Assembly (NCBI GenBank): GCA_903861075.1
Contig: CAIOSY010000145.1
Location: 1-42,148, forward strand
Length of the DNA stretch: 42,148 nt
Direction of reading: 5' to 3'
Source: an uncultured Nitrosomonadales bacterium
GTDB taxonomy: Bacteria > Pseudomonadota > Gammaproteobacteria > Burkholderiales > Gallionellaceae
Below the pieces are notes generated by a model. That model was not told the origin of the DNA and made no database searches. It worked only from the letters and a program-made list of their open reading frames with translations. Positions within the stretch are counted from its first letter, which is position 1. Each line of letters starts with the position of its first letter. This document shows positions 25,744 through 27,710 of the stretch, piece by piece. Made by a program: the position numbers and the translations under genes.

Positions 25744-26340
25744 ATGACAACCGATAAAAAATCATTGCGAGAATTGTTGACAGCGCTTTATCCTGATCAG
25801 CTGGTAAGTATTCAAGAGCGTTTGGGTGAAACAACGATAGTTGTTAAAGCATCAATAATGTTGGAAGTTTTGACCGCCTTGAGAGATAACGAGCAATTGT
25901 TATTTTCGCAAATGACGGATTTGGCCGGGATGGATTATTCAGATTACAAGGATGGCGAGTGGCAAGATAAACGTTTTGCGGTTGTTTATCAATTGTTATC
26001 CGTTGTACATAATCGACGTCTGCGGGTCAGAGTATTTGCAGACGAAGATGATTTTCCGGTGCTGGCGTCTGTGGTTGGGGTTTGGCCCGGAGCAAACTGG
26101 TTTGAGCGTGAAGCATTTGATCTGTTCGGAATAATTTTTACAGGTCATCCTGATTTGCGTCGAATTTTAACCGACTATGGTTTTGTCGGTAATCCGTTCC
26201 GCAAGGATTTTCCCCTCTCCGGCCATGTAGAAATGCGCTATGATCCAGAGCAGCAGCGCGTTGTATATCAGCCGGTTACGGTTGAGCCACGTGTTGTAAC
26301 CCCGCGCATCATGCGCGAAGAAAACTACGGTTGTAATTGA
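25744..26340 (+). CDS. nuoC: NADH-quinone oxidoreductase subunit C
   Basis: A 198-residue hydrophilic subunit of the connecting fragment, separate from NuoD here (they are fused in E. coli). The signature is [59 protein letters not shown] (residues ~118-178). It ends at 26340. What follows is not nuoD directly but a 37-codon frame that copies the nuoD beginning. Confidence 0.97.
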
Positions 26341-26350
26341 GGACCTGTTC

Positions 26351-26383
26351 ATGCCCGAAATTAAAAATTACACGATGAATTTT
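26351..26383 (+). repeat. Duplicated nuoD start, copy 1 (copy 2 at 26457-26489)
   Basis: The 33-base block matches the beginning of nuoD at 30 of 33 bases, with starts 106 bases apart. The similarity also includes the GAGG ribosome site before each copy. Past codon 11 the copies diverge abruptly. Confidence 0.85.
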
Positions 26384-26464
26384 AGCTGCGGCCTCCCTGC
26401 GGGTCTTGGTTTCTATAAGTTGTCCTTCGCAGAAATTTATCTCGTGCGAGGTAATCATGCCTGA
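26351..26464 (+). CDS. Leader-like small ORF carrying a duplicate of the nuoD N-terminus
   Basis: A 37-codon frame with a good ribosome site (GAGG, eight bases before the ATG; it overlaps the nuoC stop). Its first 11 residues, [11 protein letters not shown], are identical to the start of NuoD. The 33 bases differ from the real nuoD start at three places, all synonymous third-codon positions. The following 26 residues (from SCGLPAGLG to LVRGNHA) have no relation to NuoD that I can see. The stop TGA at 26462-26464 lies inside the nuoD coding start, so the two frames overlap by eight bases. It could be translated and couple nuoC to nuoD, or be a partial duplication left by recombination. Whether the peptide has a function is unknown. 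Confidence 0.5.
26424..26451 (+). promoter_or_regulatory. Hairpin that can mask the nuoD ribosome-binding site
   Basis: CCTTCGCA (26424-26431) can pair with TGCGAGG (26445-26451), seven base pairs with one bulged T and a 13-base loop. The 3' arm contains the GCGAGG Shine-Dalgarno sequence of nuoD, five bases from its ATG. Ribosomes translating the small ORF across this segment would open the stem. Confidence 0.45.
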
Positions 26465-27710
26465 AATCAAGAATTACACGATGAATTTTGGCCCGCAGCA
26501 TCCTGCTGCACACGGTGTGCTGCGTCTGGTGTTGGAGTTGGATGGCGAAGTTATTGTTCGCGCCGACCCCCATATTGGCTTGTTGCATCGTGGAACCGAA
26601 AAGCTGGCCGAAAACAAAACATTTTTACAGTCTGTTCCTTATATGGATAGGCTGGATTATGTTTCTATGTTGTGCAATGAACATGCTTATGTTCAGGCGA
26701 TAGAAAAGCTCGCCGGTATTGAAGTTCCTCTGCGCGCACAGTATATACGTGTCATGTTTGATGAAATTACCCGTATATTGAATCACTTGATGTGGTTAGG
26801 TGCGCATGGTCTGGACATCGGTGCAATGACGGTGTTTCTATATTGTTTCCGTGAGCGTGAAGATCTGATGGATGCCTATGAGGCGGTATCAGGCGCACGT
26901 ATGCATGCAGCATATTATCGCCCCGGTGGCGTTTACCGGGATTTGCCGGACAGTATGCCTCAGTATGAAGCGTCTAAAATTCATAATGCGGCTGCCGTTA
27001 AGAAAATGAATGAAAATCGTCAGGGTTCCCTGCTCGACTTTCTTGAAGATTTCACGCGTCGTTTTCCTACTTATGTGGATGAATACGAAACCTTATTGAC
27101 GGATAACCGTATCTGGAAACAACGTACCGTCGGTATTGGTATTGTGACCCCTGAACGTGCTCTGGCTTTGGGTTTAAGTGGTCCTATGTTAAGAGGCTCG
27201 GGTGTGGCGTGGGACTTGCGTAAGAAGCAGCCTTATGCGGCGTATGATAAGGTCGATTTTGATATTCCTGTGGGTGTCAATGGTGATTCCTATGATCGCT
27301 ATTTGGTGCGAGTCGAGGAGATGCGTCAATCTAACCGTATTATTAAACAGTGCATCGACTGGTTGCGTGTAAATCCTGGTCCTGTGATGACCAGTAATCA
27401 CAAGTACGCGCCACCCGGAAGAGTATCCATGAAGCAGAACATGGAAGAACTGATTCATCACTTCAAATTATTTACTGAAGGTATGCATGTGCCTGAAGGT
27501 GAGGCCTATGCGGCGGTTGAACATCCTAAAGGTGAATTTGGTATTTACCTCGTCTCTGATGGGGCTAATAAACCTTATCGCCTGAAGATACGTGCGCCAG
27601 GTTTCCCTCATCTGGCGGCATTGGATGAAATGGTGCGTGGTCATATGATTGCTGACGTGGTAACGATCATTGGTACGCAGGATATAGTTTTTGGAGAGAT
27701 AGACCGATAA
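26457..27710 (+). CDS. nuoD: NADH-quinone oxidoreductase subunit D
   Basis: A 417-residue subunit of the quinone-binding cavity, related to the large subunit of [NiFe] hydrogenase. Motifs: [23 protein letters not shown] (~9-31), [55 protein letters not shown] and the C-terminal VFGEIDR. I start at ATG 26457; an upstream in-frame ATG at 26406 would add 17 residues of unrelated sequence. Expression may depend on translation of the small ORF that ends in its start region. Confidence 0.97.

Follow-up and report, generated by a model that had tools for sequence, protein, structure and literature searches.

A dispersed palindromic repeat at a duplicated nuoD start, and a leader reading frame that probably serves translational coupling

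Translationally coupled leader open reading frames (ORFs) stop at or over the start of the gene downstream, and leader and gene each have their own ribosome site. The leader that precedes nuoD in the DNA studied here likewise stops at or near the downstream start, in 47 of the 47 distinct inserts that we compared. Unlike other coupled leader ORFs, it begins with a copy of the gene that it feeds and accompanies the insertion of a repeat, here called element E.

Several described repeats share traits with E. In the available passages of PMC2229807 and PMC10969869, MITEs, ERIC/RU and YPAL/RU-2 are, like E, short, non-coding and dispersed, with inverted-repeat ends and locations in or near genes, and YPAL/RU-2 is accompanied by target duplications of 3–26 bp near dyad symmetry (passages of PMC2229807). 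E differs from these elements in having no TA ends and in its flank duplications: these measure ~23–90 bases, run up to the border of E, are accompanied by an inverted copy and restore the ends of genes. Rickettsia palindromic elements (passages of PMC10969869) likewise insert into protein genes without breaking the frame, but they add a peptide to the host protein; an E insertion instead goes with a repeated gene end, and its extra frame lies apart from the host protein. REP families tagged with GTAG or CGTC are short palindromic repeats with many copies as well (passages of PMC3733652); in contrast, the consensus and the 14 rows of our alignment A4 of E carry neither GTAG nor CGTC at their ends, and E has two inner hairpins in a three-way junction. 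The arrangement of E units, direct – inverted – direct with short junctions, is that of small inverted triplications, for which the passages available of PMC13334657 propose fold-back and template switching, report slippage over hairpins in E. coli that leads to precise loss, and describe random events in yeast and cancer genomes averaging 148/160/148 bp. In E units, by contrast, the inverted part is short and the same repeat stands at the junction of many sites. The E family is not described in the passages of PMC13334657, PMC10969869, PMC2229807, PMC3733652 and PMC2267715 at hand, and no description was found in Rfam or by a literature search, which misses most subscription journals.

The window is a stretch of 42,148 nucleotides from an uncultured Nitrosomonadales bacterium (contig CAIOSY010000145.1). 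Its nuoC–nuoD region is laid out as follows.

25744–26340, + strand: nuoC, an ORF of 198 aa, named from homology among these loci and operon order
26338–26340, + strand: TGA stop of nuoC, overlapping the leader's GAGG
26339–26342, + strand: GAGG, ribosome-site-like by sequence, 8 bases 5' of the leader ATG
26351–26383, + strand: L1, displaced upstream copy of nuoD codons 1–11, equal to nuoD at 30 of 33 bases with 3 synonymous differences
26351–26464, + strand: leader ORF of 37 codons, its stop (26462–26464) within the nuoD start
26380–26435, + strand: E, a decayed copy of the dispersed element (model R2, 22.1 bits, E-value 0.0079; model R1, built partly from this very copy, 63.3 bits)
26433–26446, + strand: L', which repeats the end of the nuoD-start copy imperfectly and in inverted orientation (AAATTTATCTCGTG vs the reverse complement of CACGATGAATTT), read from the sequence
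26448–26451, + strand: GAGG, ribosome-site-like by sequence, 5 bases 5' of the nuoD ATG
26457–26489, + strand: L, downstream copy and present nuoD codons 1–11, by sequence comparison
26457–27710, + strand: nuoD, 417 aa (NCBIfam NF004739, 656.3 bits with a cut-off of 360; TIGR01962, 615.1 bits with a cut-off of 459.35)

This layout agrees with the original prediction that nuoD codons 1–11 are present in two copies at a distance of 106 bases, each behind a GAGG ribosome-like site, and that the upstream copy stays open for 37 codons and overlaps nuoD (start at 26457) by 8 bases. The prediction that the three codon differences between the copies are all synonymous third-position changes also held (CCC/CCT, ATT/ATC and AAA/AAG). 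The direct repeat as a whole spans 26349–26386 and 26455–26492, with an identity of 34/38, and is the longest in the 2.1 kb examined. We judge the first GAGG to be the ancestral nuoD site by its position after nuoC; unit-free relatives such as L005 have the same site directly before nuoD. The 231-base stretch at this locus had no other match at an E-value ≤ 0.001 in its own genome (96.3% complete).

We propose, with a probability of about 0.7, that the locus as a whole reflects insertion of E with a duplicated nuoD start and that its leader ORF is kept for termination–reinitiation coupling. E would have been placed after codon 11 of nuoD. Upstream of it would lie the old start (L1) and the old ribosome site, downstream the second start (L), equipped with a new site; E and the short inverted flank copy would join L1 to L. 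The old start would then open a short ORF running through E, and inserts would persist solely where this leader stays open and ends at the new nuoD start. There, the terminating ribosome would most likely restart on nuoD, linking nuoD translation to that of nuoC. Coupling of the leader to nuoD, which the original prediction had offered as one possibility, fits the stop positions given below and appears well supported by sequence comparison. Ribosomes are probably handed on to nuoD rather than blocked, and we infer that the coupling raises nuoD translation. The repeat would then sit harmlessly in the start of a central-operon gene: a further copy of that start follows it, and the one left over opens an in-frame ORF that ends at the new start.

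Leaders of this kind recur in relatives. Among 41 genomes searched, 40 had nuoD; in the oriented nuoC–nuoD gap, the same build was seen in several congeners and in L027, from another family, while others had ~10 bases, the usual gap. In the genus set, nuoD matched in 72 of 76 genomes and its start was readable in 70, comprising 26 with a leader (gap 89–232), 39 with a gap of −8 to 21, and 5 with a larger gap and no recognised leader. Same-build leaders in 26 of 70 genus genomes make the repeat before nuoD more than chance. Altogether, 48 leaders were read from 44 genomes, some in tandem, under 12 family codes (f1, f2, f6, f10, f15, f23, f24, f29, f35, f39, f47 and f48); searches over 40 genomes had stricter filters, so their counts are lower bounds. 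Most of the sample consists of many-contig, probably metagenome-assembled genomes, in which mis-assembly of tandem units is possible; the single-contig genome G338 has a nuoD leader, and the single-contig genome G055 holds many E copies. The arrangement is neither unique to the window nor specific to nuoD.

In all of the 47 distinct inserts (start-to-start distance 79–160 bases), which are related by descent and do not amount to 47 independent events, the leader frame has its stop between −15 and +14 relative to the next ATG; the next two frames do so in only 6/47 and 3/47, and stop earlier in 36 and 35. Three leaders outside the 47 also stop close to nuoD: L250, with E almost gone (+8); L246, with a different palindromic insert (−9); and L285, with a degenerate start (−2). 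At 109 other sites, the leader phase of E is open through E plus 30 bases in just 28. The open frame is therefore not a property of E but is kept at the nuoD site. The original prediction had named two findings in close relatives that would speak against it, lack of the copy and frameshifts; 44 of 70 congeners have no recognised copy, but every copy counted keeps its frame intact. The 47 distinct inserts under 12 family codes represent a natural experiment on translational coupling in the complex I operon.

These stop positions bear directly on the view that the insert has no function, E being selfish, the second start sufficient, and the open frame a passive remnant of recent insertion. Rapid turnover would suit that view: on a 101-row nuoD tree, a quick method gave at least 25 changes of unit presence, 15 of them forced by well-supported branches. 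It is also consistent with the window's new start having its own GAGG. Nonetheless, we consider it unlikely, given that all 47 inserts end at the next start while other frames rarely do, that E is so seldom open in this phase elsewhere, and that the leader tails have diverged while remaining open.

Comparison of the E copies themselves speaks to how the nuoD units came about. Many genus nuoD copies of E are at least 0.9 alike, and no other E exceeds 0.85 against them; the f15 and f47 genomes have nuoD copies that form close sets of their own. The copies of L019, L226, L227, L232 and L260 are less alike. For four units from other families (L279, L280, the first of L281, and L286), the best match among nuoD copies is hardly better than the best match among the other E copies. 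On sequence likeness, we read shared descent or exchange within clades, together with what were probably several separate arrivals at the same nuoD base.

Selection on the leader was examined in leaders of equal length, paired between genomes whose nuoD is ≥ 86% identical (18 pairs, overlapping). In these pairs, pN/pS was 0.82 for the leader tail, 0.03 for leader codons 2–11, and 0.00 for nuoD's own first codons. The tail thus appears to evolve near-neutrally, its one requirement being an open frame. The scarcity of non-synonymous change in codons 2–11 is a puzzle that we cannot fully explain; coupling does not require such conservation. Compared with its own nuoD, the leader showed 112 synonymous and 22 non-synonymous codon differences over the 48 leaders (108:8 without L019, L295 and L226), and 39 of the 48 have no non-synonymous difference at all.

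Such figures could favor a functional peptide, in which the amino acids of a NuoD-like N-terminus are selected as a complex I decoy, a docking signal or an assembly-timing signal; the f15 leaders (L027, L274, L276, L277 and L278), which look inherited and have only synonymous changes in these codons, would agree with this. We regard a peptide as improbable on several grounds. The same bias is found in displaced 3'-end copies of unrelated genes, with 203 synonymous to 57 non-synonymous differences over 39 sites, a tally that includes some copies probably in the wrong frame and some clearly decayed. It persists even in copies that lie behind a stop inside E, where reading on from the gene is barred (argF of L048, 15:2; argF of L111, 7:0; metK of L107, 10:0). 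Moreover, the tail is near-neutral, the leaders of L019 and L285 are decayed at their start yet still end at nuoD, and the 44 congeners mentioned above do without a leader. The decoy N-terminus suggested by the original prediction is therefore not supported, and the synonymous-only pattern is not special to the leader.

Since displaced 3'-end copies share the bias even behind stops, a general cause is more likely than peptide function, namely that genomes exchange units and gene ends, or lose units precisely. We infer that the synonymous-only divergence of the two starts stems mainly from exchange with unit-free or foreign alleles. Consistent with exchange, L247 looks recombinant: its nuoC end matches L017 and the first 60 bases of its nuoD match L255. 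By eye, the two copies showed no steady asymmetry against the nearest unit-free relatives in 44 genomes, and the idea that one copy is foreign as a rule was rejected. Gene conversion from nuoD was also rejected. Between related genomes, the mean number of synonymous codon differences is 1.6 for leaders and 1.8 for nuoD starts (29 and 33, respectively, over 18 pairs). Leader and own nuoD are no closer, at 2.3 (112/48), which makes frequent conversion unlikely.

The insert belongs to a dispersed repeat family that accompanies such duplications at many genes, which was not visible from one window. E is a palindrome of ~60 bp that can be folded as a three-way junction, and it occurs scattered among iron-oxidising bacteria and related lineages. 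R1, modelled on the stretch that follows the repeated start, had further matches at other places within the same genomes. Like MITE-like repeats, E is short, dispersed and multicopy: R2 matched 30 of 41 genus genomes at an E-value ≤ 0.01, with up to 18 matches per genome. At ≤ 1e-5, its matches across the order took in 86 of 300 genomes, spread over 43 of 134 genera. The window's copy is weak under R2 and is not among the order-wide matches. At an E-value ≤ 1, its own genome gave three matches, on contig C95 (1.6e-6), in the window (0.0079) and on contig C55 (0.088). A search of named genomes with an exact pattern from E gave 30 contigs, of which six have broad titles, one being Gammaproteobacteria bacterium; the other 24 are named for what we take to be betaproteobacterial lineages (Gallionella, Sideroxydans, Ferrigenium, Sulfuriferula, Methylophilaceae, Azonexus and others). 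Arrays of E recur, with a spacing of ~100–150 bases.

One E copy had no match in a plasmid or a phage collection, and a location of E on such replicons was rejected on this basis; the nuoC–nuoD region had no near match among plasmids either. E as the end of a larger integrative element was likewise rejected, as a 146-base left flank had no second copy in 20 downstream stretches of 18 kb, the longest short match being 20 bases. In L091, from the single-contig genome G055, an E copy adjoins an apparent tmRNA gene 3' end, a common integration site. A sub-type of E that begins with CTGTAGC and shows no clear flank duplication lies beside a similar CGCTCACTTCTGGTCGTGCTG-like stretch in three genomes (L050, L150 and L158); it is perhaps another composite repeat.

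The fold of E was drawn by hand from 14 copies chosen from 21 and comprises an outer stem and two inner hairpins, with 23 pairs. As it was derived from the very sequences tested, there is a bias in its favor in the finding that 96.2% of cells pair and that 9 pairs change on both sides (shuffles, 3.4 ± 1.1). Its covariation score was reached by 0 of 500 shuffles, and sliding the partners destroys the covariation. The outer stem (7 pairs, 93.9% of cells paired) forms a terminal inverted repeat, and one of its pairs changes from G-C to A-U in 6 of the 14 sequences.

Units with E have the order L1, E, L', s, L, R, where R is the gene body and L its end, so that the gene is whole behind the insert. 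Of 111 E copies, 58 had a left-flank direct repeat scoring ≥ 28; the swapped controls, among them the same gene from other genomes, gave 49 in 1110. In 31 of the 58 the repeat ends at E+3 to E+5, and the other 53 copies stayed below this score. Behind E comes an inverted copy of the flank, matching at ≥ 12 of 14 bases for 41 of the 111 copies (mean 10.8 vs 8.4 in swapped controls). The direct copy (58/111) and the inverted copy (41/111) together give the direct–inverted–direct order of small inverted triplications. At most sites listed, the duplication measures ~23–90 bases and varies in size, in contrast to the fixed short target duplication of MITE-like elements.

Genes at unit sites include ftsW, argF (ornithine carbamoyltransferase), smpB, nrdB and rfbB (dTDP-glucose 4,6-dehydratase), all above NCBI cut-offs, and glmS, metK, proB and acetate-CoA ligase, which fell below them because just the last ~120 residues were given. 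Pfam added a ribonucleotide reductase large chain, a DnaJ C-terminal, a VWA protein and an ABC protein, and nrdA is also named among the gene ends duplicated at E. The insert is at the 5' end of the gene for nuoD and rfbB. The rfbB locus of L049 (genome G019, contig C92) has two tandem leader units 125 bases apart, in each of which the first 15 codons are repeated and which each end 4 bases into the next start. The first of these leaders has two non-synonymous differences.

Displaced 3'-end copies can be read as translated tails at some sites. After ftsW lies a gene that we take to be murG, and there the linker frame is open through E with its TGA over the murG ATG in 7/7; argF of L146 and L086 is also readable in this way. 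As a general account this was rejected, since a stop inside E breaks the frame at argF of L048 and L111 and at metK of L107. The ftsW/murG element was seen in seven genomes (L044–L047, L060, L062 and L099), and each linker ORF runs from a murG start copy to the real start. Together with the tandem rfbB leaders of L049, these linkers repeat the hand-over proposed at nuoD and speak for coupling. The second clear R2 unit of the window's own genome stands at the argF 3' end (L086, contig C95); its displaced copy differs only synonymously (6:0), and an ORF there could start over the argF stop.

How such units form may be outlined tentatively. The flank anatomy suggests that the insert arises by fold-back template switching in replication and not by a transposase. 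It is possible, though less likely than not, that E is a DNA-only selfish hairpin without transposase, that copying by a 3' end writes the gene-end duplication, and that selection keeps the ORFs that hand ribosomes over. A stalled 3' end would copy E, the folded-back E would prime copying of the flank, and the end would then return upstream; each insertion would thus make its own gene-end duplication and spare the gene. The gene-end preference and the direct–inverted–direct flanks offer a testable case for mobility by template switching. If the proposal is true, the E family would keep supplying the genomes of this order with new coupled leader ORFs, tandem units and exchanged gene ends.

Whether the folded element acts as RNA is a separate matter. 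The window's E copy alone folds no better than shuffles (z +1.25), and neither does the L004 insert; structure is therefore argued from the family and not from the window's copy, and a stable hairpin in the window insert was rejected. Rfam 15 gave nothing at a gathering score, only weak matches, mostly to microRNA hairpin models, and the leader was thus rejected as a known structured RNA. That E and its inverted copy act together as an RNA switch, or allow ribosomes to skip ahead from the first start copy to the second, is highly improbable: the L010 insert is structured (z −2.71) and L' could pair with either start copy, but, besides these folding and Rfam results, the same element lies behind unrelated genes and skipping would not require a tail kept open up to nuoD.

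Palindromic repeats of other kinds (GTGAAACGTGAAA-like and CAAGGTTCAAGG-like) occupy the nuoC–nuoD gap in L013, L240, L241 and L246, from genomes without E; this gap seems to attract inserts.
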